A stretch of DNA of 22,730 nucleotides from positions 1 through 22,730 of IMG/VR virus record IMGVR_UViG_3300021425_000207. The stretch is one strand, 5' to 3'. Below are positions 892 through 22,201 of the stretch, one piece after another. Within the stretch, counting starts at the first letter, position 1. Every line of letters starts with the position of its first letter. The notes beneath the pieces are model-generated. The model did no database searches and had not been told where the DNA came from. It saw only the letters and a list, made by a program, of their open reading frames with translations. The position numbers and the translations under genes are program-made. The DNA comes from a virus.

Positions 892-901
892 TTGAGTTCG
901 T

Positions 902-973
902 TTCCTTTGACTCTTATAGAATACACGAGAACCGACCCTTCGGCGGTTTTAGTGGACAGTTCTAGAACCGTCC
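902..973 (-). promoter_or_regulatory. Repeated stem-loop/promoter cassette, copy 1
   Basis: Read on the minus strand: a stem-loop with arms GGACGGTTC / GAACTGTCC (one G-U pair, loop centred on CTAG), then a second hairpin AACCG / CGGTT, then the box ATTCTATAAGAG and AAAGGA before the ATG at 891. The first hairpin starts 10 nt after the stop of the gene at 983. There is no U-tract after the hairpin, so it is not a standard intrinsic terminator. The box is one base shorter than in copies 2-5. Confidence 0.75.
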
Positions 974-982
974 CATTTTGCT

Positions 983-1144
983 TTACCAATACTTGGCACA
1001 TGCATCATCATAAGATGCACCACGAGGAACTTGCGAACAGAATCGCTCCATCTTCGTGTCTTGCATTTGTGTTACACTTCGAATGGCATTGATCCCAATG
1101 TTTGTACCAATGATGACGATGACTGCTACAAGAATTAAACGCAT
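983..1144 (-). CDS. Small membrane-anchored or exported protein
   Basis: A 53-aa ORF with a strongly hydrophobic N-terminus (MRLILVAVIVIIGTNIGINA) typical of a single transmembrane anchor or uncleaved signal. It is followed by a short soluble tail with two Cys (CSQVPRGASYDDACAKYW) that could form a disulfide if periplasmic. The start at 1144 lies 3 nt after the preceding stop. It is the last gene of the operon beginning at 2485; cassette copy 1 follows directly. Function unknown. Confidence 0.75.
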   Translation of the reverse strand: MRLILVAVIVIIGTNIGINAIRSVTQMQDTKMERFCSQVPRGASYDDACAKYW

Positions 1145-1147
1145 GAT

Positions 1148-1468
1148 TCAGTTAGCGATGAGATCCATGTTCAGGTTGTTGACACACTGCACACCGCAGT
1201 AGTATGCATCCAGAAACTTATCGAAAGTCTCGACAGTTTCAGTAACCGAGTGAAGAGGAGTTACCTCTTTACGATAAGAAACAGTGAAGACATCAACAGT
1301 TCCATCATCAACATACTTTGCAGAATGAGTGATAGCAATGTCGCTATTCTCTTTGAAACGATAAACAGAACGAGTGTTGAGGTGATGAGCAGTCAACTCA
1401 CTGCCAAAGTATTGCTCTGCTTTCCAACCTTGACGAAAGAGTGACATTTGAGTTGCGTTGTTTTCCAT
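1148..1468 (-). CDS. Protein of unknown function, 106 aa
   Basis: I place the start at ATG 1468 (MENNATQMSLF); a longer frame to 1519 would need TTG. A second possible start is the internal Met at 1447. The protein reads as alternating strands (SVYRFKENSDIAITH, TVDVFTVSYRKEV) and a C-terminal helix with a Cys pair (DAYYCGVQCVNNL). No family is recognised. The sequence just upstream, GTGCAATAGTAACAACATG, resembles the cassette box GTGCAATACTATAAG, so a weak internal promoter may sit here. Confidence 0.7.
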   Translation of the reverse strand: MENNATQMSLFRQGWKAEQYFGSELTAHHLNTRSVYRFKENSDIAITHSAKYVDDGTVDVFTVSYRKEVTPLHSVTETVETFDKFLDAYYCGVQCVNNLNMDLIAN

Positions 1469-1475
1469 GTTGTTA

Positions 1476-1532
1476 CTATTGCACAGATCCGGATCGCCCG
1501 TAGTTCGGCATGATACCAAACGGCAGATCCAT
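1476..1532 (-). CDS. Possible 18-aa leader peptide
   Basis: In the 106-nt gap between the genes at 1575 and 1468, a frame opens at ATG 1532 and encodes MDLPFGIMPNYGRSGSVQ, ending 7 nt before the next ATG. A weak AAAGGG lies 12 nt upstream. The same gap contains the palindrome GATCCGGATC (1486-1495) and TATCG/CGATA arms. It may be a leader peptide or simply unused sequence; an ORF this short is easily produced by chance. Confidence 0.22.
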   Translation of the reverse strand: MDLPFGIMPNYGRSGSVQ

Positions 1533-1574
1533 TGATCAGTGCCCTTTATCGGTGACCCATAGAACGATAATCTC

Positions 1575-1793
1575 CTATGCTACACATTCCTTGATAAACT
1601 TCCGCAGTTCGGAAGACATTCCAGGAGAAAGTGTAGAACGACCTTTGCTCCCATGAGTCGGAAGTGTGAAAGTTCGTTGTACCTTAACGTGTGTGACTTT
1701 CAGGTGTTTGCCACCCTTCTTGATCACACATCCAACCTCCGAAGTGACTTTAATCACCTCAGACATTTTCATCGGACGAGTAGACTTTGCCAT
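1575..1793 (-). CDS. HicA-like small protein (possible RNA interferase fold)
   Basis: A 72-aa protein whose pattern fits the HicA/YcfA double-stranded-RNA-binding-like fold. A helix containing VIKVTSEVG is followed by GGKH (27-30) in the position of the family's GSH motif, a strand pair LKVTHVKV...TFTLPTHG (PTHG 45-48, like the family's VPxH), and a final helix after LSPGMSSELRKFI, like the usual 'GTLRKIL'. His30 would be the catalytic-type histidine. HicA toxins cleave mRNA and normally pair with HicB; I see no HicB gene adjacent. It could be a non-toxic nucleic-acid-binding relative. The basic N-terminus (MAKSTRPMKM) may be extra. Confidence 0.6.
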   Translation of the reverse strand: MAKSTRPMKMSEVIKVTSEVGCVIKKGGKHLKVTHVKVQRTFTLPTHGSKGRSTLSPGMSSELRKFIKECVA

Positions 1794-1889
1794 GATAAAA
1801 AAGTGCTGTGGGTTTTTCCACTCCTCTACAATACAGACAAACCCGACAGAATCCAGCGGAATCTAGGAGACTGAAACAATCTGTAACAA

Positions 1890-2099
1890 TTAGTTGTTAT
1901 TATCTTCCCAAGGCACATCCGACATATCGAGTTCACCATTGACACAAAACTCTTCAAGAAGATAATCAACAGTGACTTCCATCATAGCAGCAATGCCTTC
2001 GAGTTGAATGAACTTATCAAGTTCAATTTCGTAGTATTCAGTTTCAACAGTGTTAGTCAACATGTCGATGTTAGTGTTGTCGTTGTTGGAATGTTTCAT
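1890..2099 (-). CDS. Small acidic protein, unknown
   Basis: A 69-aa product, ATG at 2099. An Asn/Thr-rich N-terminus precedes a helical segment (YYEIELDKFIQLEGIAAMMEVTVDYLLEEF) and an acidic tail ending PWEDNNN. It is strongly acidic overall. A 96-nt gap separates it from the HicA-like gene downstream; I see no clear terminator or promoter in that gap. No family recognised. Confidence 0.7.
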   Translation of the reverse strand: MKHSNNDNTNIDMLTNTVETEYYEIELDKFIQLEGIAAMMEVTVDYLLEEFCVNGELDMSDVPWEDNNN

Positions 2100-2108
2100 G
2101 ATTAAATG

Positions 2109-2267
2109 TCAACGAGTGGTGCGTTGGATAAACTCTCCAGTCATCTTAAATGCTTCACCAGTGTGATAGCGAACAGGTGCAAAGATGAAGAACGCAACCA
2201 GATAAGTAAGACCGATCAGTTTCATTTTGTTGGGAGACTTGAAGGACAAATACTTACGTCGGGACAT
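2109..2267 (-). CDS. Small single-TM membrane protein
   Basis: A 52-aa ORF starting MSRRKYLSFK at ATG 2267, 8 nt after the preceding stop. A basic N-terminus precedes one hydrophobic segment (LIGLTYLVAFFIFAPV, about residues 17-32), then an amphipathic tail (AFKMTGEFIQRTTR). By the positive-inside rule the N-terminus would face the cytoplasm. An internal Met at 2225 is an alternative start. Function unknown. Confidence 0.65.
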   Translation of the reverse strand: MSRRKYLSFKSPNKMKLIGLTYLVAFFIFAPVRYHTGEAFKMTGEFIQRTTR

Positions 2268-2275
2268 TAACTTAA

Positions 2276-2485
2276 TCAGACGATGGTATCAGAATTGGGA
2301 TCAAAAGTTACCTCAGAAATAACATCAAAATCCTCAGTCATTTTGACGTAATTCCACTCACCTTCATCCTCACCTTCTTGATAAAGATGAATGAAACCTG
2401 CGGAATCAGTTTTTACAAAACAACCATCATAATTGTCCTCATCGAAGACATAACCAGATGCAATCAGTGCGTCAGTGAAAGTCAT
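2276..2485 (-). CDS. Small acidic protein, first gene of operon
   Basis: 69 aa. The start is ATG 2485 (MTFTDALIASGYVFDEDNYDG), not the in-frame extension to 2521, which would translate the promoter cassette. AAAGGA lies about 11 nt upstream, supplied by cassette copy 2. The product is acidic and probably mostly beta (YDGCFVKTDSAGFIHLYQEGEDEGEWNYVKM is split by turns). It heads the operon 2485-983. No family recognised. Confidence 0.75.
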   Translation of the reverse strand: MTFTDALIASGYVFDEDNYDGCFVKTDSAGFIHLYQEGEDEGEWNYVKMTEDFDVISEVTFDPNSDTIV

Positions 2486-2495
2486 TTGAGTGCAA

Positions 2496-2570
2496 TTCCT
2501 TTGACTCTTATAGTATTGCACCGATTGGGTGCGTTTGGGGAGAATAGTGGACAGTTCTAGAACCGTCCAC
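2496..2570 (-). promoter_or_regulatory. Repeated stem-loop/promoter cassette, copy 2
   Basis: The clearest copy. On the minus strand a 24-nt hairpin (2547-2570) has arms GTGGACGGTTC / GAACTGTCCAC with one G-U pair. A second hairpin GCACC / GGTGC (2518-2532) follows, then GTGCAATACTATAAGAG and TCAAAGGAA, then ATG at 2485. The preceding gene stops at 2582, 11 nt before the hairpin. The stop-proximal sequence TAAAGCAAAA is shared with copy 1. Confidence 0.8.
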
Positions 2571-2581
2571 TTTTGCTTTAC

Positions 2582-2812
2582 TTAGACCTCAGCATTAGGA
2601 TCTAACATTTTAGCATCCAGATCAAGAACGTCTGCAATTCTATAGATAATCGTCCAAAGATTGTCGTCCTCGTCATCTAAAGTTTCGCAAGTCTTTTGCA
2701 GATACTCTATATCTATTTGCATTTCAGTGCATTTAGAGTCAAGATCATCAACGAGGTGAGCAATCTCTTCAATGCGATCTTGAAGTTCTTCAATGGTGTT
2801 TTTAATGAACAT
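2582..2812 (-). CDS. Small coiled-coil protein
   Basis: A 76-aa acidic protein, ATG at 2812. Heptad-like hydrophobic spacing through IEELQDRIEEIAHLVDDLD and MQIDIEYLQKTCETL suggests a coiled coil over residues ~5-50, followed by a short C-terminal helix (IIYRIADVLDLDAKML). It is probably oligomeric. It is the last gene of the operon 3637-2582. No family recognised. Confidence 0.75.
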   Translation of the reverse strand: MFIKNTIEELQDRIEEIAHLVDDLDSKCTEMQIDIEYLQKTCETLDDEDDNLWTIIYRIADVLDLDAKMLDPNAEV

Positions 2813-2822
2813 GATGTTTGCT

Positions 2823-2990
2823 TTAGTAATTGTTCAGATTACGGTAAGGACGATAAGAAGAACCGTACATAGATTGGTTGTAACGTTTCTGGTCAAGAAT
2901 ATCCTCATACTCATCAGGAGTGAGGTAATCTTCCCAGCAACCGCTATACTCTTCTACTTGAACTTTGTCAGTGTAGTTGTAGTTCACCAT
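2823..2990 (-). CDS. Small Tyr-rich protein
   Basis: A 55-aa ORF (MVNYNYTDKV...), ATG at 2988-2990 overlapping the end of the upstream gene by 7 nt and ending 10 nt before the next start. It has about eleven Tyr, an acidic middle (WEDYLTPDEYEDILDQ) and a polar basic C-terminus (SSYRPYRNLNNY). The tight overlap supports it as a real gene although it is under 60 residues. Function unknown. Confidence 0.7.
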   Translation of the reverse strand: MVNYNYTDKVQVEEYSGCWEDYLTPDEYEDILDQKRYNQSMYGSSYRPYRNLNNY

Positions 2991-3172
2991 GCGACTTGTG
3001 CCTCCTTAATGTCAGAATTGTAATACTTTTGGAAGATAGAATTGATCACAGGATACCAGGGTTCATTGCTACTCGGATACCCACATTCTTGTGCATCACG
3101 AAGAAACTTAAGGATGCAAGTCTGTTCATCTTGAGTTAGATCAACTCGGTTAAGATTGTAACCAGTGTTCAT
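2984..3172 (-). CDS. Small protein, unknown
   Basis: 62 aa (MNTGYNLNRVDLTQDEQ), ATG at 3170-3172 overlapping the upstream TGA in an ATGA arrangement. The body LTQDEQTCILKFLRDAQECG and SIFQKYYNSDIKEAQ looks helical. No domain recognised. The start context AACAAATGAACA is the same as that of the gene at 3342. Confidence 0.75.
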   Translation of the reverse strand: MNTGYNLNRVDLTQDEQTCILKFLRDAQECGYPSSNEPWYPVINSIFQKYYNSDIKEAQVAW

Positions 3173-3342
3173 TTGTTTGCGGGAAAGTTACGGCAGACAG
3201 CATCACACAAGGTTTTCACCAATTCATTCTTATCTTCGTTGTATTCATCTCCCCAAGTATCATAAAAGAAACCTTCAATGATACAATCAATGTCTTCCAT
3301 CAGTTGTTCACGAGCAGTCAGCATTTCGAGTTTGTTGTTCAT
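3169..3342 (-). CDS. Small acidic protein, unknown
   Basis: A 57-aa ORF (MNNKLEMLTAREQLMEDIDC...), linked by ATGA overlaps to both neighbours (stop at 3169, start at 3342). Its first half is an acidic helix, its centre contains YDTWGDEYNEDKNE, and the C-terminal half has a CDAVC motif with two Cys four residues apart. No family recognised; the coupling on both sides supports reality. Confidence 0.75.
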   Translation of the reverse strand: MNNKLEMLTAREQLMEDIDCIIEGFFYDTWGDEYNEDKNELVKTLCDAVCRNFPANK

Positions 3343-3401
3343 TTGTTAAGCGGAGTGAAGAACCAAAGAATAATTAAAGAACCAAGAATAACCGTTGTCA
3401 T
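3339..3401 (-). CDS. 20-aa membrane micropeptide
   Basis: An ORF of only 20 codons encodes MTTVILGSLIILWFFTPLNK, essentially one hydrophobic helix with a short polar end. Its ATG overlaps the upstream stop (TGATG at 3399-3403) and its TGA overlaps the next ATG (ATGA at 3339-3342), so it fills exactly the space between two real genes. Without it the operon would have an uncharacteristic 58-nt gap. I infer a translated single-TM peptide of unknown role, for instance a membrane-active or membrane-protein-modulating peptide. Confidence 0.6.
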   Translation of the reverse strand: MTTVILGSLIILWFFTPLNK

Positions 3402-3637
3402 CAGTAGTGTGCTTCAGAAGTGTCAAGTTTGTCAGACCATTCTGCAATCTTGTCGTAGCATTTCTTACGAGTGTTCTCACAATCCTGACCGAAGTCAGTC
3501 AGGAATTGAAAAGCATATTTGATGCGATTCTCAGGTTGAGCAAGCACACGATCCAATTCTTTACGCTGTTTCTCTACACGAGCATTGTGAGCAAACATCT
3601 CACGATCAGCGAAAGAAGTGGTGAAGTAAGGGTGCAT
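3401..3637 (-). CDS. Small charged helical protein, first gene of operon
   Basis: 78 aa, ATG at 3637, served by the AAAGGA of cassette copy 3. A long charged helix (REMFAHNARVEKQRKELDRVLAQ) is followed by FQFLTDFGQDCENTRKKCYDKIAEW with two Cys. It has near-neutral charge and coiled-coil-like character. It heads the operon 3637-2582. No family recognised. Confidence 0.75.
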   Translation of the reverse strand: MHPYFTTSFADREMFAHNARVEKQRKELDRVLAQPENRIKYAFQFLTDFGQDCENTRKKCYDKIAEWSDKLDTSEAHY

Positions 3638-3646
3638 TAAGTTCGT

Positions 3647-3722
3647 TTCCTTTGACTCTTATAGTATTGCACCAATCAAGACCCTTTGGCGGGTTTAGTG
3701 GACACTTCGCTCAACTGTCCAC
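3647..3722 (-). promoter_or_regulatory. Repeated stem-loop/promoter cassette, copy 3
   Basis: Minus strand: hairpin arms GTGGACA / TGTCCAC around a GTTGAGCGAAG-type loop (3698-3722), a short ACCC / GGGT hairpin, then GTGCAATACTATAAGAG, TCAAAGGAA and ATG at 3637. The hairpin lies inside the last codons of the upstream gene, whose stop is at 3676. The conserved box at 3647-3672 is identical to copies 2, 4 and 5. Confidence 0.78.
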
Positions 3723-3888
3723 CGGTCTCTTGTTTCTTTGCTCTGTTGTTGGTAATCTGCCGATCTAATTCATAATGAATGGAGATCAATTTGTTGATCA
3801 TAAACTGCTCGTACTCGTTACCTTTCAGAAGTTCAATAACATTATTCACTTGCATTTGTGCAAGGATAAGATTAGTTTGTTCAGTCAT
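3676..3888 (-). CDS. Small protein, unknown; 3' end made of cassette
   Basis: 70 aa. Of two nearby ATGs I choose 3888 (MTEQTNLILAQMQ) because GGAGG lies 7 nt upstream and the ATG overlaps the preceding stop as ATGA; the ATG at 3894 is too close to GGAGG. The body is helical (NNVIELLKGNEYEQFMINKLISIHYELDRQI). The last ~11 residues (SEVSTKPAKGS) are encoded by the stem-loop cassette, so the C-terminus may be an acquired extension. Function unknown. Confidence 0.75.
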   Translation of the reverse strand: MTEQTNLILAQMQVNNVIELLKGNEYEQFMINKLISIHYELDRQITNNRAKKQETGGQLSEVSTKPAKGS

Positions 3889-4088
3889 CCCCATGCCTCC
3901 ATGAACTCATCAAGATGGTAAATGTCATCCGTTGCTGTTTCTTCAATCAACTCATCATAGGACATTTCTTTCAACATTTCAAGGTATTCTTCAGGAGTTG
4001 CATCCTCATCTGGATCAAAATCATCATGACAAAGAAACACATACTCATTGTAGAGTGCGTCAATAAGTTGCTCTTTGGATACAGTCAT
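3885..4088 (-). CDS. Very acidic small protein
   Basis: 67 aa starting MTVSKEQLIDALY at ATG 4088 (ATGA overlap with the upstream stop). About 22 Asp/Glu against 2 Lys make it one of the most acidic products in the window. Long runs such as DDFDPDEDATPEEYLEML suggest a DNA-mimic-like or partner-binding surface, although I recognise no ArdA- or Ocr-type family. Fourth gene in operon 4922-3676. Confidence 0.75.
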   Translation of the reverse strand: MTVSKEQLIDALYNEYVFLCHDDFDPDEDATPEEYLEMLKEMSYDELIEETATDDIYHLDEFMEAWG

Positions 4089-4285
4089 TCTTCTAAACGA
4101 ATAAATTGATTCATCAGATTCCAATAAGTGTAATAGTAATCTTTCTCCATGTTGTTACGAACAAGACCAGAGAAAGAGTGTAGATTGTTTCGCTCAATCT
4201 TCACTCTATTCTCATCCCACCACTTATCAAACTCTCTTGCTTTTTTATAGTGGAGTTTGGAGATTGAATCATTATCGTAATTCAT
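4085..4285 (-). CDS. Small basic helical protein
   Basis: 66 aa (MNYDNDSISKLHYKKAREFD...), coupled to both neighbours by ATGA overlaps. It is rich in aromatic and basic residues (FDKWWDENRVKIERNN; KDYYYTYWNLMNQFIRLEE) and predicted all-helical. No family recognised. Confidence 0.75.
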   Translation of the reverse strand: MNYDNDSISKLHYKKAREFDKWWDENRVKIERNNLHSFSGLVRNNMEKDYYYTYWNLMNQFIRLEE

Positions 4286-4674
4286 CGGATATAAAGAAAA
4301 CCACCGTATTGATCACAAATGAGAGGATTATCTGCCAGTTGATCAATATAGAAACGAATACCCTTTGCAGGTGCTTTAACCGATGCAGGTTTGTAACATG
4401 CACCAGTGGCATTCTCCACGAACATGTAAGCAGAACGTCCACGTTGACGCTCACCACCAGAGACCAAATAGGTCATCAGTTTGATATACTTACGACCGAA
4501 CTCTGCTTCAACTTGGTAATAAGTATTGTGACCAGATTCAATGGAATTAACTTTCCACTCATTGTTCAATCGTTCCACGAGACTATCAACGAGGAACTCG
4601 GATTTGGTTTGATTCAGAACAGCAGACATTTGATCTCGTTGTTGTTGGTGAAAGTGTTGTTTAATTAAACTCAT
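4282..4674 (-). CDS. Conserved-looking phage protein, 130 aa
   Basis: Start at ATG 4674, sharing TAATG with the preceding stop; an internal Met (MSAVLNQTKSEF) 15 codons later is an alternative. Residues ~20-50 look helical. The C-terminal two thirds look like a compact beta-rich domain (YYQVEAEFGRKYIKL; GRSAYMFVENATGACYKPA; KGIRFYIDQL; GGFLYIR). It has the look of a well-kept globular protein of the cyanophage small-gene pool, but I cannot name a function. Confidence 0.75.
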   Translation of the reverse strand: MSLIKQHFHQQQRDQMSAVLNQTKSEFLVDSLVERLNNEWKVNSIESGHNTYYQVEAEFGRKYIKLMTYLVSGGERQRGRSAYMFVENATGACYKPASVKAPAKGIRFYIDQLADNPLICDQYGGFLYIR

Positions 4675-4922
4675 TAACACGCCATCCCAAGACCACCTTG
4701 AAACTGAGGAATCTCGTTGAAACCAGTTACATTGTAACCGTAACCTTCAACCCGAGAATCTACCTCACGTTGGAAGTCTTTCTTGTTAATCAGAGACTTG
4801 GATTGCGTCCCACCCATGAAAGTAACGATCTTAATCATGCGGGACTCGCTAACACTTCCGTCATTGAACTTGACGGGATAGAAGTCAACAACCATGTTGC
4901 CATCTTTAGAAGTGAGTTGCAT
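4674..4922 (-). CDS. Small protein, first gene of operon
   Basis: 82 aa (MQLTSKDGNMVVDFYPVKF), ATG at 4922 with the cassette copy 4 AAAGGA upstream. Several short strands and a Gly-rich C-terminus (EIPQFQGGLGMAC) are visible. It heads the operon 4922-3676 of five genes joined by overlapping codons. Function unknown. Confidence 0.75.
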   Translation of the reverse strand: MQLTSKDGNMVVDFYPVKFNDGSVSESRMIKIVTFMGGTQSKSLINKKDFQREVDSRVEGYGYNVTGFNEIPQFQGGLGMAC

Positions 4923-4931
4923 TTGACGCGA

Positions 4932-5005
4932 TTCCTTTGACTCTTATAGTATTGCACGGATCAACGGGATCCGCAACCGATAGTGGACAGCACGGCGACT
5001 GTCAC
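4932..5005 (-). promoter_or_regulatory. Repeated stem-loop/promoter cassette, copy 4
   Basis: Minus strand: hairpin arms GTGACAG / CTGTCCAC with a one-base bulge (4983-5005), a second hairpin CGGATC / GATCCG (4957-4973), then GTGCAATACTATAAGAG, TCAAAGGAA and ATG at 4922. The hairpin overlaps the stop codon (5002-5004) of the upstream gene. Confidence 0.78.
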
Positions 5006-5256
5006 ATTGCTCCTACTCCATGCAGTTCTGCTTCAATAACATCAAAGATCTCGCTATAAATGTGATCGTAATCGTCTAGATTTCTAATAACTTTCTCCGC
5101 AACATCATCACTAATGTTAAACTTTTCTCCCACACAGTCAGGATAATCAACTACATCATCTTTAGTAAAGATCCATGCAGCAACAGGTGCATTTTCTCCA
5201 TGATATTGAATCAATTTCTCAACAGATTTGCGGAGTTCTTTGAGAGTGCGAGTCAT
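5002..5256 (-). CDS. Small acidic protein, unknown
   Basis: 84 aa from ATG 5256 (MTRTLKELRKSVEKLIQYHG); a GTG at 5265 that overlaps the previous stop is an alternative adding three residues. A basic N-terminal helix is followed by an acidic region (KDDVVDYPDCVGEKF...VIRNLDDYDHIYSEIFDVIEAEL). It is the last gene of operon 5680-5002, with its stop inside cassette copy 4. No family recognised. Confidence 0.75.
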   Translation of the reverse strand: MTRTLKELRKSVEKLIQYHGENAPVAAWIFTKDDVVDYPDCVGEKFNISDDVAEKVIRNLDDYDHIYSEIFDVIEAELHGVGAM

Positions 5257-5261
5257 GAGTT

Positions 5262-5471
5262 TCACTTGAGAATGATACGGTAGTCAATACTTTTGATGCA
5301 CCATCCTACCATCGAGGTGATCTCTTCCACCAAATCATCACCATCAACTGCCTCCCAAATCGACCCGATAATCTCATCAGTCAGATCCATGGCATCGCTA
5401 TAACAAAACTCCTCAGGATCATCAAAGGCATCCTCAAAATCAAACTCAATTTCAGTAACTTGGAATTGCAT
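5262..5471 (-). CDS. Very acidic small protein
   Basis: 69 aa, ATG at 5471. About 20 Asp/Glu against 3 Lys/Arg; the first half (IEFDFEDAFDDPEEF) is almost polyanionic and the second half helical (LTDEIIGSIWEAVDG). It may mimic nucleic acid or bind a basic partner; that is inference from charge alone. Middle gene of operon 5680-5002. Confidence 0.75.
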   Translation of the reverse strand: MQFQVTEIEFDFEDAFDDPEEFCYSDAMDLTDEIIGSIWEAVDGDDLVEEITSMVGWCIKSIDYRIILK

Positions 5472-5479
5472 GATAATAC

Positions 5480-5680
5480 TCAGACAGATTCTTTACGGAG
5501 TTCAGAAACAATTTGACTCAGATCATCAATAGCATAATTCATTGCAGATTTGGAGTAACCAGTAGCAAACGGGTAACTACGATCATTATCACCAGACTCA
5601 AGATCTACCTCATAACAAACATTAACTGCTTTGGTAAGTGCGTCGATAACTTGTATCAAACGTCCGTCAAGGTTGTGCAT
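5480..5680 (-). CDS. Small protein, first gene of operon
   Basis: 66 aa (MHNLDGRLIQVIDALTKAVN), ATG at 5680. It is helical with a polar centre (ESGDNDRSYPFATGYSKSAMNYAIDDLSQIV). The cassette copy 5 box lies upstream, but the AAAGGA to ATG distance is about 16 nt, longer than in copies 2-4. No family recognised. Confidence 0.75.
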   Translation of the reverse strand: MHNLDGRLIQVIDALTKAVNVCYEVDLESGDNDRSYPFATGYSKSAMNYAIDDLSQIVSELRKESV

Positions 5681-5696
5681 AACGAATTAGGTGTGA

Positions 5697-5773
5697 TTCC
5701 TTTGACTCTTATAGTATTGCACCTTAGAGACGATCCTGGCGCCTCTGGTGTGCAGTTTGAAGACTGTCACCAG
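5697..5773 (-). promoter_or_regulatory. Repeated stem-loop/promoter cassette, copy 5
   Basis: Minus strand: hairpin arms CTGGTGACAGT / ACTGCACACCAG with a small internal loop (5745-5773), then AGAGGCG / CGTCTCT (one G-U, 5726-5746), then GTGCAATACTATAAGAG and TCAAAGGAA before the ATG at 5680. The hairpin overlaps the stop (5767-5769) of the upstream nucleotidyltransferase-like gene. This hairpin type (GTGACAGT/ACTGCAC) differs from copies 1-3 but matches the decayed copy at 8372. Confidence 0.78.
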
Positions 5774-6708
5774 GACTTCTGTGCGGTGAAGTTTCTGAAA
5801 CTAAACTCCCGACGATTGATGAGTTTATATGTACCAAACTCATTGGTCATAACGTAACCCTCATGATCACATTCTTCACCAGCAAAGTAACACTCAATGT
5901 CCTCATCAGTAGACATACCTTCCATCAACAAATGTTTGATGTGGATGATAAGTCGATAGAGGAAAGTTAGTCTCTTACCCATACCTGCATGGGACAAATC
6001 TTTCTCTTCACGAATACACTTATTGATCGCAACTTTCAGTTCTTGTCCTTCTTTTCCTTCAGGTAATCTAAGAAAATTGCTAACCAAATCTGCAAGACCG
6101 AGAAGGTAATCAATGCGACGATGACGGGAGGTAATGGATGCATTAGTGTTCAAGAAATGAGTCTTAGTTTGTTGAAAAGGTTTCTCTTTTGGACGTTCAG
6201 AATATACTTCGGGAGGAGTAACATCCCAAGGGAAACCGAAGCGAACCTCTGCATCTTTGATGGTCTCACCAACATAATGAGTGTGTGCAGCAAAGACTAT
6301 AGATTCAGGATGAATCTCCTGAGTCATCTTGTAAGTAATTGTATTCGGAGTAAATGTATTTGAACCACCCCAACCTATGAAGTCACCTTGATAGATTCCC
6401 TGCAATCTAGGAAGACATTCAAAACACATGTGCAGGATGGATGCTACATTTGGAATGTGTCCGTGATTAGTTTCAATATCTGCGTGGTTATAGTTAATCT
6501 TAATCTTCTTCTTATTGAATACACTTTTCGTACCCACAAAGAACTTACCGTTCTCGGGATTGATACCCCAAACTACAGCGGGAGCACCATCATACTTGAC
6601 GGATAGAGTATTGTTACGTTCCCACAGAAAGTTAAGCATCTGACGGAAACTATCCCGACCCTCAAGTAGAGAATCCTCAGGATGTTCTAAGTGAGTGTTC
6701 TTTTTCAT
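5767..6708 (-). CDS. Ligase-type nucleotidyltransferase-like protein
   Basis: 313 aa from ATG 6708; the in-frame extension to 6759 is rejected because it would translate an intrinsic terminator. Residues 38-41 read KYDG in SVKYDGAPAVVWG, matching motif I (KxDG), the lysine that takes AMP or GMP in DNA ligases, RNA ligases and capping enzymes. Later EGYVM (283-287) resembles motif IV and YKLINRR (~294-300) resembles motif V. Between them QGDFIGWG is in the place of motif III. The order and spacing fit a covalent nucleotidyltransferase fold, but there is no recognisable OB or DNA-binding domain. It could repair nicked RNA or tRNA, or ligate DNA; the substrate is unknown. It is transcribed on its own, between a terminator and cassette copy 5. 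Confidence 0.6.
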   Translation of the reverse strand: MKKNTHLEHPEDSLLEGRDSFRQMLNFLWERNNTLSVKYDGAPAVVWGINPENGKFFVGTKSVFNKKKIKINYNHADIETNHGHIPNVASILHMCFECLPRLQGIYQGDFIGWGGSNTFTPNTITYKMTQEIHPESIVFAAHTHYVGETIKDAEVRFGFPWDVTPPEVYSERPKEKPFQQTKTHFLNTNASITSRHRRIDYLLGLADLVSNFLRLPEGKEGQELKVAINKCIREEKDLSHAGMGKRLTFLYRLIIHIKHLLMEGMSTDEDIECYFAGEECDHEGYVMTNEFGTYKLINRREFSFRNFTAQKSW

Positions 6709-6714
6709 ATTAGT

Positions 6715-6743
6715 ATCATTGCACAAAAAAACTCCCCTGTCAA
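6715..6743 (-). promoter_or_regulatory. Possible promoter built into the terminator hairpin
   Basis: On the minus strand TTGACA (6743-6738) forms the loop and inner stem of the terminator at 6724-6750. AATGAT follows 17 nt later (6720-6715). The predicted start would fall on the A of the ATG at 6708, giving a leaderless mRNA. The nearby GTGCAATGATACTAATATG also resembles the cassette box GTGCAATACTATAAG. The -10 match is only 4 of 6. Confidence 0.35.
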
Positions 6744-6750
6744 GGGGAGT
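6724..6750 (-). terminator. Rho-independent terminator
   Basis: Perfect 8-bp stem ACTCCCCT / AGGGGAGT with a 4-nt loop, followed on the minus strand by seven T. It begins 11 nt after the stop of the gene at 6762 and closes the two-gene unit 7180-6762. Confidence 0.92.
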
Positions 6751-6761
6751 GTGCAGCATGT

Positions 6762-6935
6762 TTAACTGTCACTACGATATGCTGGTTCTATTCCATTTAT
6801 TGTACGTTTGTCATGCAATTTTGTCAGAATAGAATCACAGTCCCAATAATCTTTTGAACTTGTTGTAGTTTTATTGATTTGATAATATCTAACAGCATCA
6901 TAAATGACACTGTACTCTTTTGCTGTTAGATTCAT
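6762..6935 (-). CDS. Small protein, unknown
   Basis: 57 aa from ATG 6935 (MNLTAKEYSVIYDAVRYYQI), sharing TAATG with the upstream stop; the longer frame to 6962 has no reason to be used. The N-terminal helix is aromatic and the C-terminal half is basic and polar (DCDSILTKLHDKRTING). It ends just before a strong terminator, so it is the last gene of its unit. Function unknown. Confidence 0.75.
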   Translation of the reverse strand: MNLTAKEYSVIYDAVRYYQINKTTTSSKDYWDCDSILTKLHDKRTINGIEPAYRSDS

Positions 6936-8315: not shown

Positions 8316-8394
8316 AATTAACCTCTCAACTTGTTTAAGATAATGCATCCAGGAGCGGATTGGACGAAATAGTGTGCGGTTTGTTGACCGTCAC
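8316..8394 (-). promoter_or_regulatory. Decayed stem-loop cassette (copy 7)
   Basis: Minus strand: GTGACGGT / ACCGCACAC hairpin (8372-8394) matches the copy-5 hairpin GTGACAGT / ACTGCACAC with a compensated A-T to G-C change. It is followed by CACTAT as in other copies, then TGCATTATCTTAA where intact copies have TGCAATACTATAA, then GAGAGG and ATG at 8314. The hairpin and part of the box lie inside the 3' end of the upstream gene. Confidence 0.5.
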
Positions 8395-8778
8395 AGTGTT
8401 CCCTTTCGGGATCTTTTTGGTTTGTTTGGGTGCAGAACCCTTCTTTTTTTCCCGATCGGGAACATTGGAAACACCAGAACCCTTGCCACCACTGGGTTCT
8501 GTTTTGAGCAAATTACTCTTTTTTTGTGATTTTCGTTTGGCGGGTGGTTTGGGTTGTACCTGCGACCCAGATTTTCGTTTTTTGTATTTTTCTACTTTAC
8601 TCATGGCACTTTGAAAGGTGCGTGATACATCACTAAGCACACTTCCATTGTGAATGATAACCCACTCTTTATCACCAATGCATGGCACTACTGCCCACAT
8701 TCCATCGGGAGAGACATAATCTCTCACACATTTTGGATCAAGTAGTGTAGAGTTTTGGTTGTAGTATTTCTGACTCAT
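8335..8778 (-). CDS. Protein with basic, low-complexity tail
   Basis: 147 aa, ATG at 8778 overlapping the helicase stop (ATGA). The first ~65 residues form a small folded domain (CVRDYVSPDGMWAVVPCIGDKEW; TFQSAMSKVEKYKK). Residues ~66-130 are Lys/Ser/Pro-rich and disordered, with several KKK/KRK patches, and could bind nucleic acid. Translational coupling to the helicase suggests a partner or accessory to it. The C-terminal codons contain a cassette-type stem-loop. No family recognised. Confidence 0.75.
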   Translation of the reverse strand: MSQKYYNQNSTLLDPKCVRDYVSPDGMWAVVPCIGDKEWVIIHNGSVLSDVSRTFQSAMSKVEKYKKRKSGSQVQPKPPAKRKSQKKSNLLKTEPSGGKGSGVSNVPDREKKKGSAPKQTKKIPKGNTVTVNKPHTISSNPLLDALS

Positions 8779-10562: not shown

Positions 10563-11641
10563 GCCCAGTCCTCCATGTTATCCTTCGAGTCAATCTGCGG
10601 AGTGAAGAGGAAGAAACTATCTTCAACAGGATTGTATTTACCTGCACGATAGTCATCAGCAATTCGCAGACACTTCTCCAACATGTCAGACATCATCTGA
10701 TCCCTCTTGTAGTCACGAACCTTTTGAAGTTTCCCAGAAGTCTGTTTGTTGATGGATGCAACAACTCCAACCTTTTCTACATCTTTGTGTTGAAGAAGCA
10801 AGCAAATATCAAAGAAACAACGAGGATCATAATCAAGGTCTTGAACACCACCAGTACCAGAACCACCCTTAAAGGTTTTGTTCAAGTATGCTACATCGTT
10901 CACGGGAGTAACCTTGGAACGAGTAGAGAACGCAGTGATCTCAGACTTATACTGAGAGACCCACTGTTTGCGACTCTCATCACTGTAAGACTTTACAGGA
11001 GTAATGATACCGTACTTTGCACGGAGTTTCTCACGGAGATAAGGAAACTCGTTGGTCTTCTGGTTAAGACGAATCAGACGGGCATTGATGGACTTGTCAT
11101 CATCAATGTCGATGATGTTCTTCTCAACCATGTTAGCGAGGGTGAGAATCACATCGTTTTCAGTACGAGGTGCCTTCACATATTCATCATCTTCGTCATT
11201 CTCGTTCGACTGATAGATCATCAGATCTTCTTCAGTATCGAACTTAACAAGTGCGACAAAGATAGTATCACGACCGGTCAGATAGTGTGCTTGAAGACGA
11301 TGTTCACCACACACAAGTTCATAGAGTTCTTTAGAAACTCCTTCACCATGACACTGAATGACAACAGGTTGTTCATAGGTGAAGAGATAACGTCCTTCTT
11401 CAATACGATCAACGAAAGTAGCAACAGTCTCCTGAATGAGACCTTCAGCACGAACTTTATTCGTCAGTACATTATCAGTTCGTCGCAGAATCTGTTTCAG
11501 AGGAACCTCAACGAACTCAATAAAGGTAAGACCTTCACCTTTAGGAATACGGTTTGCAGCAGTAACCAACTCTACCTTTTTTTCAAAGGAGAGATCAATC
11601 GGGTTAATCATAATTTGTTGTAAGGGTTGCGAAGTTTGCAT
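10559..11641 (-). CDS. ParB-like protein
   Basis: 360 aa, ATG at 11641 (an internal Met at 11611 is an alternative). Residues ~40-140 resemble the ParB/Spo0J N-terminal domain: strands FIEFVEVPLKQI, a helix NKVRAEGLIQETVATFV, a strand QPVVIQCHG, then GEHRLQAHYLTG (112-123), which corresponds to the GERRxRAxxxAG box that binds CTP or forms the nuclease-like site. The C-terminal half is helical with a Gly-rich loop (KGGSGTGGVQD) and no obvious helix-turn-helix. In phages such proteins serve as DNA-binding regulators or nucleases rather than partition proteins. There is no ParA nearby. Confidence 0.75.
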   Translation of the reverse strand: MQTSQPLQQIMINPIDLSFEKKVELVTAANRIPKGEGLTFIEFVEVPLKQILRRTDNVLTNKVRAEGLIQETVATFVDRIEEGRYLFTYEQPVVIQCHGEGVSKELYELVCGEHRLQAHYLTGRDTIFVALVKFDTEEDLMIYQSNENDEDDEYVKAPRTENDVILTLANMVEKNIIDIDDDKSINARLIRLNQKTNEFPYLREKLRAKYGIITPVKSYSDESRKQWVSQYKSEITAFSTRSKVTPVNDVAYLNKTFKGGSGTGGVQDLDYDPRCFFDICLLLQHKDVEKVGVVASINKQTSGKLQKVRDYKRDQMMSDMLEKCLRIADDYRAGKYNPVEDSFFLFTPQIDSKDNMEDWA

Positions 11642-11886: not shown

Positions 11887-12024
11887 TCAGTTAGTTTCGA
11901 CGTAGATGTAATTGGGATGTTTCTGTTTGAAAGCATCCACTTGTTGTTGGTTTTTAAGGAACACCGAGAGGGTAGTATTTGGATGTTCCTTAAAGTAATA
12001 CTTTACTTGAATCAGGTTCTTCAT
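11887..12024 (-). CDS. Small basic protein with internal RNA stem
   Basis: A 45-aa ORF (MKNLIQVKYYFKEHPNTTLS), ATG at 12024 overlapping the upstream stop as ATGA. Two short strand/helix units are visible (QVKYYFKEHPNTT; VFLKNQQQVDAFKQKHPNYIYV), the two halves slightly alike. The message contains an 11-bp perfect inverted repeat. Function unknown. Confidence 0.7.
   Translation of the reverse strand: MKNLIQVKYYFKEHPNTTLSVFLKNQQQVDAFKQKHPNYIYVETN
11953..11994 (-). repeat. 11-bp perfect inverted repeat inside a gene
   Basis: TTTAAGGAACA (11953-11963) and TGTTCCTTAAA (11984-11994) are exact reverse complements separated by 20 nt, within the coding sequence of the 45-aa gene. The stem also contains an AAGGAA Shine-Dalgarno-like run. 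It may be an RNA structure or a protein-binding site. Confidence 0.7.
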
Positions 12025-12409: not shown

Positions 12410-12487
12410 TTGATTTGTTTGACCCTCTTAATATACATGGATCAGACGACCGTGGCGCAGATGGTGGACAGTTTGACCAACTGGCAC
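12410..12487 (-). promoter_or_regulatory. Diverged stem-loop cassette (copy 6)
   Basis: Minus strand hairpin CAGTT / AACTG flanked by GTG / CAC (12464-12487), followed by TCCAC as in copies 1-4. The box reads GTATATTAAGAGGGTCAAAC where intact copies read ATACTATAAGAGTCAAAGG. It lies 2 nt past the stop of the gene at 12489 and directly before the gene at 12404. The Shine-Dalgarno element AAAGGA is lost. Confidence 0.5.
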
Positions 12488-12488
12488 A

Positions 12489-12656
12489 CTACAGTGTTTG
12501 AGTCTCCATACCAGTAACATTCATACCCCGACGAATCATCTTCATCATCGCCTCTTGAGCAGAATTAAGTTCAAAATAACATGCCCACTTGTGATCTTCA
12601 CCCAAATAGTAACCAACCTTATAGAACTCAGTTACTTGCGGTTTCCTTCTCTTCAT
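12489..12656 (-). CDS. Small basic protein
   Basis: A 55-aa ORF (MKRRKPQVTEFYKVGYYLGE), ATG at 12656, overlapping the 3' end of the upstream gene by 29 nt. A basic N-terminus, a strand-rich middle (EFYKVGYYLGEDHKWACYFEL) and a helix AQEAMMKMIRRG give an alpha/beta pattern. An AAGA precedes the ATG. It stops 2 nt before the diverged cassette. Function unknown. Confidence 0.7.
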   Translation of the reverse strand: MKRRKPQVTEFYKVGYYLGEDHKWACYFELNSAQEAMMKMIRRGMNVTGMETQTL

Positions 12657-20613: not shown

Positions 20614-21348
20614 AAATTTTAGTTTTATTCTATCTCGCACATATTGTAAGTATTTTTCATTATTAAATTTATTTGGAAATTTCCAAGTTGGTTCTTTTTC
20701 TGATTCTCTTGGGTGTAAATACCAATCAAACATTAGATTATATCTTGCACATGTATATGTTGCTTTAAAATTGTAAGTAGTGCTTGGTATGATGTATAAA
20801 GAATTTTCTACTCCTTTTAAATATTTTATTTCATTTCCTATGTTTGTCATTATGCCTGTTTTTTCAGATTCGGACTTTAAGAAATATACAATTCTAAAGT
20901 GAGTTAACTCTTCTACTCCACATCTTTCATTAAGCCAAACATCTCTATCGTCTATAGGAGTGCTAATTAAATTCCCAATAAAATCACCTAATGTAGTGGA
21001 ATGTTCCAACCAACAAGAATGTGCAGTTACTAAACCCTTATCAATATTAAATCTATCACAATATTGGAACATTATATTTTGCATATGCAAAGAAAATTTA
21101 TTCCATTTATCTACCGAGTATGGAAATTCTAAATCTTCACGATAAGAATTATCATCACAAATTTTTAATCCGTGGCAATCCAAGATTGGTTTAGTTATTG
21201 ATAAACTATGGCCATTCTTATCAATAAGATTATATTTCAATTGTTTATCACAATCTTCGATCAAAAAATCAATCATTTCTTGATCAAACACATTTGATAC
21301 TTTTACTATGTCATCTCCAAGAGGACTGTTTCCAGTTGAGTCTGTCAT
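20590..21348 (-). CDS. Unrecognised protein, 252 aa
   Basis: ATG at 21348, overlapping the end of the Mom-like gene by 38 nt. An N-terminal segment (VKVSNVFDQEMIDFLIEDC) resembles the start of small 2-oxoglutarate oxygenases found in phages. A beta-rich C-terminal half (HFRIVYFLKS; GVENSLYIIPSTTYNFKATY; ARYNLMFDWYL) ends in a pattern like the 'RYSL.FDW' strand of that double-stranded beta-helix fold. However, I cannot find the HxD...H iron triad, so an active oxygenase is doubtful. AT-rich codon use like its neighbours. Next to a fibre gene and a Mom-like gene. Confidence 0.7.
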   Translation of the reverse strand: MTDSTGNSPLGDDIVKVSNVFDQEMIDFLIEDCDKQLKYNLIDKNGHSLSITKPILDCHGLKICDDNSYREDLEFPYSVDKWNKFSLHMQNIMFQYCDRFNIDKGLVTAHSCWLEHSTTLGDFIGNLISTPIDDRDVWLNERCGVEELTHFRIVYFLKSESEKTGIMTNIGNEIKYLKGVENSLYIIPSTTYNFKATYTCARYNLMFDWYLHPRESEKEPTWKFPNKFNNEKYLQYVRDRIKLKFLTKNSQI

Positions 21349-21925
21349 TTAATTTTTTATCTAGAACTATTAAGTATCTATGCTTTCTAGATCTAATACG
21401 CCATTCTCCTTCAACACCTTTAATAGAACCTCTAGAATGTTTGGTTCCATCAGAGTAGTAAAAATCTTTTTTTGGATCAGTTAATCCATAATACTTAAAG
21501 TTACATGCTTTGTATATTGTTCCAGAATGATGATCAGCGTCAGCATAACTAAGAATAGCACGAACGTCAGCATCTTTCCTAAATCTTTTGATGCACCTAC
21601 TTACAAACCAAGAAGTTATATTATACTCTTCTTTTTGAACTTCTGGATCTACACATAGACGAGAGAGTTCGAATAGTCCCTCTTGTTCATCACGTTGTAA
21701 ACCAAATGCACCTACGGCAATTTCTGGGACAGGGAGACCAGTAAAAATGCAAGCAGCAAGACACTTCCCAATTCTAAGGGGGCATTCCCACTCAGTATGC
21801 CTGAAAAGTCCATAATTATACCCCGATTTGAAGTCTTTCGACTCATCTTTTAGATAGTGGTGAGTATAAAGAAGATCTTTTATTTCTTCTTTACTAACTC
21901 TATCTATGTAAAAATCACTCTTCAC
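21311..21925 (-). CDS. Mom-like GNAT protein (probable DNA base modification)
   Basis: 204 aa from GTG 21925. The pattern fits the Mom family of phage Mu and relatives: FYIDRVSKEEIKDLLYTHHYL at the start is split here after 20 residues; then SGYNYGLF, GLPVPEIAVGAFG, ELSRLCVDP (86-94), SWFVSRCIKRF, SYADADHHSGTIYKACNF (126-143), KYYG. In Mu, Mom has a GNAT fold and converts DNA adenine to an acetamido/carbamoylmethyl derivative that resists restriction. The conserved ELSRL, SYAD and HSGTIYKA segments hold the expected cofactor and active-site residues. Its length is usual. Here it lies in a structural-gene region, not beside replication genes. A GNAT enzyme with another substrate is the alternative. 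Confidence 0.72.
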   Translation of the reverse strand: MKSDFYIDRVSKEEIKDLLYTHHYLKDESKDFKSGYNYGLFRHTEWECPLRIGKCLAACIFTGLPVPEIAVGAFGLQRDEQEGLFELSRLCVDPEVQKEEYNITSWFVSRCIKRFRKDADVRAILSYADADHHSGTIYKACNFKYYGLTDPKKDFYYSDGTKHSRGSIKGVEGEWRIRSRKHRYLIVLDKKLNDRLNWKQSSWR

Positions 21926-22127: not shown

Positions 22128-22201
22128 AGCCACAAGTCGGACTTGAACCGACGACCTACGGTTTACAAAACCGTTGCTCTATCCAGCTGAGCTATAGTGG
22201 C
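22128..22201 (-). tRNA. tRNA-Thr (anticodon UGU)
   Basis: Full cloverleaf on the minus strand: acceptor GCCACTA / TTGTGGC (one T-T mismatch), D-arm GCTC / GAGC, anticodon arm ACGGT-TTTGTAA-ACCGT with anticodon TGT reading ACA, and T-arm GTCGG-TTCAAGT-CCGAC. The discriminator is U; no CCA is encoded. Its first base follows directly on the U-tract of the cpeT terminator, so its 5' end may need processing of read-through RNA. It likely supplements host Thr decoding for the AT-rich phage genes. Confidence 0.93.

Follow-up and report, generated by a model that had tools for sequence, protein, structure and literature searches.

What separates the runs of very small genes in the variable zone of a T4-type cyanophage, and what might the repeated DNA between them do? 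This question is raised by a 22.7-kb IMG/VR virus record (IMGVR_UViG_3300021425_000207; all 22,730 nucleotides were analysed and are hereafter called the window), whose relatives are Synechococcus myoviruses. The genes concerned all lie on the minus strand, and the gene order in the window is a giant fibre-like gene, a helicase and small genes. A sequence-only reading had described a repeated intergenic cassette composed of a stem-loop and a promoter-like box, and such a cassette, in the variable zone of a T4-type cyanophage, is what we recover. The whole is best explained, with a probability of roughly 70%, as a promoter cassette with an upstream regulator-binding dyad and a partly fused terminator.

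We found four exact occurrences of the 17-mer GTGCAATACTATAAGAG in the window, all on the minus strand (2505-2521, 3656-3672, 4941-4957 and 5706-5722), compared to a mean of 0.08 in shuffled sequence, where none of 100 shuffles reached four. Copy 1 reads GTGTATTCTATAAGAG (905-919, minus strand, for CTATAAGAGTCAAAG), which is one base shorter and carries substitutions; the five minus-strand copies reported earlier are thus real. Directly after the box, TCAAAGGAA follows in five of five copies, with an ATG shortly downstream.

Two classes of copy can be told apart, class A with TATTCT after a 16-nt spacer and class B with C and AATACT after a 17-nt spacer. Cassette 1 (895-977, minus strand; profile score 54 bits) is of class A with a spacer one base shorter, and combines the dyad GGGACGGTTCTAGAACTGTCC, a second hairpin AACCG/CGGTT and the box CTATAAGAGTCAAAGGA at 903-919. 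The other four, also on the minus strand, are of class B: cassette 2 (2489-2570; 48 bits) has the dyad GTGGACGGTTCTAGAACTGTCCAC, the hairpin GCACC/GGTGC, the extended -10 TGCAATACT and its box at 2497-2513; cassette 3 (3640-3722; 56.5 bits) has the dyad GTGGACAGTTGAGCGAAGTGTCCAC and its box at 3648-3664; cassette 4 (4929-5009; 57 bits) has the dyad GTGACAGTCGCCGTGCTGTCCAC, a -35-like TTGCGG, the hairpin CGGATC/GATCCG and its box at 4933-4949; and cassette 5 (5691-5773; 49.7 bits) has the dyad GTGACAGTCTTCAAACTGCACAC, the hairpin AGAGGCG/CGTCTCT and its box at 5698-5714. As had been noted, each copy precedes a run of three to six small ORFs, according to a mechanical ORF reading. On the minus strand, these units comprise about four ORFs for cassette 1 (131-891; the first is phrog_35733), about six for cassette 2 (983-2488; one matches the ‘toxin’ family phrog_18430), five or six for cassette 3 (2582-3637; the first is phrog_15469), about five for cassette 4 (3676-4922; the first is phrog_500 and the second phrog_3274) and three for cassette 5 (5002-5680). 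The five copies probably switch on these blocks of tiny genes.

The stem-loop that had been placed upstream of each copy can be drawn in all five, but the predicted stability of the cassette clearly exceeds that of shuffled sequence in copy 2 only (z -4.35); z is close to -2 for copies 1, 3 and 5, and the fold of copy 4 is not stable for its own composition (z +0.5 versus shuffles). When the window was searched against Rfam, the only match above the gathering score was a tRNA at 22128-22201.

The box is widespread in related phages, and its copies are not recent tandem duplications: the exact core CTATAAGAGTCAAAGGA is found in at least 118 IMG/VR stretches, and a 30-base box query finds at least 264 phage records, all of them named cyanophages of Synechococcus or Prochlorococcus. 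A profile built from 106 copies retrieved 441 elements in the loci searched, including two extra ones in the window. In the nine records searched in full, every exact core is confined to one zone of a few kilobases and lies on the coding strand, with two to six exact cores per record plus diverged copies; box-like matches outside the zone carry one or two mismatches and are about as frequent as those of a reversed control pattern. In annotated genomes, the boxed zone lies between a DNA methylase or helicase and gp25/gp6, a gene order that the window shares, and in Syn9 (DQ149023) CTATAAGAG is found at 46,346, 47,261, 48,615 and 51,057, with 53,053 as a further site. The box is absent from P-SSM2, P-SSM4, S-RSM4 and the freshwater phage S-CRM01, all four of which carry the dyad promoter; S-PM2 has no box and weak dyad matches only. 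Matches to a box-less model fall mostly in one zone per cyanophage genome, with a few weaker ones elsewhere. A host origin of the box was considered and rejected, as 257 Gb of bacterial genomes gave only three matches: two in contigs of metagenome-assembled genomes that we take as phage contamination, one of which equals in length an IMG/VR contig bearing the box, and one, at chance level, in a Bacteroidales metagenome-assembled genome. Among the papers searched, the letters of the box were found in no cyanophage paper bearing on promoters; the motif may already be described in the papers on promoter-early stem-loops and on Syn9 start sites.

What the family has in common is best seen in a non-redundant alignment, where the dyad is followed by a weakly conserved stretch, a TTG in half of the copies, a C- or T-rich spacer, TG, the -10, ATAAGAGTCAAAGGA and the ATG. 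At a fixed offset, 91 of 184 non-redundant copies carry the TTG of a -35, which precedes TATTCT by 16 nt or AATACT by 17 nt. The two hexamers match four of the six consensus -10 positions. Within the -10 area, TG reaches about 98%, A 100% and T 99%, values that are biased, as are all statistics inside the core, since most copies were collected by the exact core; those upstream of it are unbiased. Sigma-70 spacing (hexamers 16-18 nt apart) or an extended -10 is present in the family and weakly so in the window. The earlier description of a box with no recognisable -35 does not hold for the family, half of which has TTG at the right distance, while in the window it is clear in copy 4 alone and four of the five copies are without a clear one. 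The cassette is plausibly a promoter of the sigma-70 type whose -10 is extended. It fills the gap between two genes: the upstream stop lies 40-69 nt ahead of the box core in 250 of 308 copies, and most copies have their start codon 22-31 nt past the box's first base.

The dyad spans 20-23 nt (GTGMCAGTTG..AASTGKCMCAC in the alignment of relatives) and is held at a fixed distance from the promoter. In 303 of 337 copies (90%), 28 nt separate its conserved CA from the TG of the -10, with the sequence in between weakly conserved at many positions. In P-SSM2, P-SSM4, S-RSM4 and S-CRM01, the corresponding distance is 28-31 nt, mostly 30, and the hexamer is TATAAT, TATATT, TATTGT or TATGCT. The dyad could form an RNA hairpin in most copies. 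However, an RNA reading was rejected: arms swapped between unrelated copies pair as well as native ones (z +0.36), and no left-right complementary pairs were found among the top mutual-information pairs for the dyad, while the ratio of G-T to A-C changes is uninformative. As its arms are constant under swapping, the dyad behaves as a DNA site, and what had been called the first stem-loop is better described as a DNA-level dyad phase-locked to the promoter, with the second hairpin being the terminator-like one. We take the dyad to be a DNA-level operator at about -54, which is the newest part of the picture, and its locked distance to the start signals suggests that some protein controls these genes.

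The variable hairpin around the -35 behaves in the opposite way. Its native arms pair better than swapped ones (z -5.3), as would be expected if the structure is kept by compensating changes, and a GC-rich stem around the -35 is found in 60 of 184 copies, compared to 11.7 expected. Among these 60, 23 have TTG in or at the loop and nine continue into a T-rich tail; the true T-tailed terminator form is thus restricted to a minority of copies. We read this arrangement as a promoter that is partly fused to the terminator of the previous unit. The sequences support a terminator role for that minority, and the window's own five copies may terminate transcription as well.

Such an arrangement recalls the promoter-early stem-loop (PeSL) elements that Arbiol et al. 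(2010) and Comeau et al. (2014) reportedly described in T4-like phages. Our comparison draws on the titles of these two defining papers and on PMC4503421. PeSLs are likewise short intergenic units of promoter plus stem-loop, several per hypervariable zone, with unrelated small genes on their flanks and occasional exchange points. The analogy drawn by the sequence-only reading is good in anatomy, and two defining features are present, namely several copies in a hypervariable region and exchange between unrelated flanking genes, but it does not extend to sequence homology with T4, as neither of our models (R1 and R2) matches T4 (AF158101), nor to covariation in the dyad. In a strict cyanophage PeSL, the first hairpin would be the RNA terminator of the upstream unit, an ordinary early promoter would follow and the main role would be that of a recombination site. 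The order of the parts and the presence of multiple copies in one variable zone agree with this, but in our alignments no T-run follows the first hairpin, its arms lack covariation and it keeps a set distance from the -10, a constraint that a terminator would not require, while the terminator hairpin overlaps the -35.

The recombination role can be assessed at the gene junctions, and here too the evidence falls on both sides. The same downstream gene is found behind different upstream genes, and the reverse, with the junction inside the cassette. Between ACG-2014a and ACG-2014b, a 234-bp match (93.6% identity) stops at one box (position 10596 of locus L130) and a 2.7-kb match (88%) begins inside the next (position 12002), a clean box-to-box replacement in which one phage has a restriction endonuclease and methylase pair and the other has other genes. 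By family, cassette identity is 0.70 when the upstream ends are 75-90% identical and the downstream genes differ, compared to 0.51 for the opposite combination and 0.44 among unrelated pairs; at high identity, the cassette sequence on the left side of the box tends to go with the upstream gene. The cassette is thus sometimes the exact joint of a gene replacement, but with no preference over other junctions of the zone. Across nine genomes or records, 12.7% of box junctions in the boxed zone are conserved versus 15.8% of the others (p 0.2, with ORF and family calls made mechanically), which goes against the proposal that boxes are preferred boundaries of shuffled blocks and against a strict PeSL, and the first junction within a unit varies just as much as the box junction does. 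A first comparison over a wider region (13% versus 32-39%) was set aside, as it had set the variable zone against its conserved surroundings. In a breakpoint map, the joints are scattered along the whole cassette and are only slightly more frequent in the box, a result that is partly true by construction because only the intergenic gap could hold joints. By these comparisons, the zone is shuffled gene by gene, with the box as one joint among many. Overall, we consider a strict PeSL improbable. Dense PeSLs have been judged absent from S-PM2 (PMC4503421), which has no box either. The element works in much the same way as a PeSL; with T4 homology absent and a terminator role supported by sequence for a minority of copies, we class it as a cyanophage form of promoter-terminator cassette rather than as a PeSL proper.

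Even less probable is that the box and hairpins form a 5' leader RNA, such as a regulator site or a processing signal by the ribosome site, with the real promoter further upstream. The box does adjoin the Shine-Dalgarno sequence, the hairpins lie just upstream, and CTATAAGAGTCAAA is more conserved than a -10 would require (most copies having been collected by this core); yet the upstream gene ends so close to the box in most copies that little room is left for another promoter, and distant phages carry a canonical TATAAT there at an equal distance from the dyad. It is very unlikely that a phage factor such as a gp55-like sigma reads the box as if it were a version of the late motif NATAAATA: although TATAAGAG has six of the eight bases of TATAAATA and many copies are without a -35, the box is found only in the small-gene zone and not before structural genes, distant homologous cassettes carry TATAAT and half of the copies keep TTG at sigma-70 spacing.

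Under the favoured reading of a promoter cassette with an upstream dyad, each copy would be a compact element occupying the space that separates two small-gene units of the variable zone, a zone that is probably expressed early. Host RNA polymerase with a sigma-70-type factor would read an extended -10 (TGCAATACT or TGTATTCT) together with a -35 that is weak or lacking, and we infer a transcription start just inside the box, which would leave an mRNA leader made up of scarcely more than the ribosome site AAAGGA plus some 10 bases. The phase-locked dyad, at about -65 to -43, would most likely bind a regulator made by the host or the phage that offsets the poor -35. As a hairpin is frequent in the -35 region, with a T-run added in some copies, the same DNA could also terminate the transcript that precedes it. 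Since the cassette is among the few DNA stretches common to unrelated small genes, exchange could occur within it too. More tentatively, and at somewhat less than even odds, the dyad could be the operator of an undescribed activator, phage-made or host-captured, that defines an early promoter class of T4-type cyanophages in which the promoter is fused to the preceding terminator.

Middle promoters of T4 likewise combine a -10 with a conserved upstream element, the MotA box, in place of a -35, but the MotA box lies at -30, whereas the cyanophages have a dyad, which lies at about -54. Cyanomyoviruses are without motA and asiA, and how early and middle genes are activated in T4-type cyanophages without Alt, MotA and AsiA is described as unclear, according to excerpts of PMC2984593. 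The same excerpts report a sigma-70-like motif for early promoters of S-PM2 and Syn9, which agrees with a host-type promoter before cyanomyovirus early genes, whereas a dyad, a terminator overlap or a common box is not mentioned in them (PMC2984593). Repeated intergenic cassettes bearing promoters are also found in halovirus HF2 (PMC8707807), an archaeal virus with an archaeal promoter type to which no relation is expected. T4-type cyanophages abound in the sea. A promoter class marked by a phase-locked dyad, which can be recognised from sequence across many genera, brings the activation question within reach of a test, since it makes predictions on start sites, directs attention to a dyad-binding protein and assigns many unnamed small genes to units that are probably early and host-directed. 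If the activator exists, its class would span phages of marine Synechococcus and Prochlorococcus as well as a freshwater one, in place of the Alt and MotA/AsiA of T4. The cassette may also serve as a defined joint in the clustered gene turnover and recombination that Kupczok and Dagan reported for the RIM8 lineage in variable region 1 (32,085-41,835 of their alignment; PMC6722890), as cassettes in S-RIM8 A.HR5 at 29,942-40,170 overlap that region, each range being counted in its own coordinate system.

Three more dyad promoters in the window, all on the minus strand, had been overlooked in the earlier reading. Upstream of a DUF6267 gene, a box-less one (6714-6773; 33 bits, fold z -3.5) runs from a dyad through the intrinsic terminator ACTCCCCTTGACAGGGGAGTTTTTTT, with a -35 TTGACA in its loop, to TGTGCAATGAT. 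It is the clearest overlap of terminator and -35 in the window, and a generic scan of the window for promoters and terminators gave its terminator, at 6731-6750, as the sole standout. A second (12429-12490; 37 bits), with the diverged box GTATATTAAGAGGGTCAAACAAA, precedes a 127-aa phrog_1987 gene, and a partial one, GTGACGGTCAACAAACCGCACAC (8353-8396; 18 bits), overlaps the end of the upstream ORF.

Alongside the two -10/spacer forms of the cassette promoters (classes A and B), alignments of related copies often show a further version of the -10 and box, GTGTATATTAAAAGAGTCAAAGG (for example, in the database stretches L006, L008, L034 and L090); copies of this third type tend to hold CCCC rather than TTG at the -35 position. 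The box also extends to contigs filed under bacterial metagenome-assembled genomes (MAGs): since this cyanophage sequence is present in NZVD01000053.1 (L133; Rhodopirellula) and NHCB01000011.1 (L134; Betaproteobacteria), and the former equals one box-bearing IMG/VR contig in length, both contigs likely represent phage contamination of the respective MAGs.

The related dyad promoter that lacks the box reads a DUF6267 gene of 313 amino acids (window 5767-6708, minus strand). In both P-SSM2 and P-SSM4, a gene that lies behind a dyad promoter likewise encodes HxEHPED-like residues at its start, and thus promoter and gene may have been kept together.

Within the small-gene unit that follows cassette 2, a 72-amino-acid open reading frame (ORF; window 1575-1793, minus strand) matches phrog_18430 and, more weakly, phrog_353, both of which carry the label ‘toxin’; its product may be a small host-directed or toxin–antitoxin-type protein.

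The minus strand also carries a tRNA gene close to the window end (22128-22201) and a 204-amino-acid ORF (21311-21925) that matches the Pfam Mom family (E value 1e-21), a family of DNA-base modification proteins.
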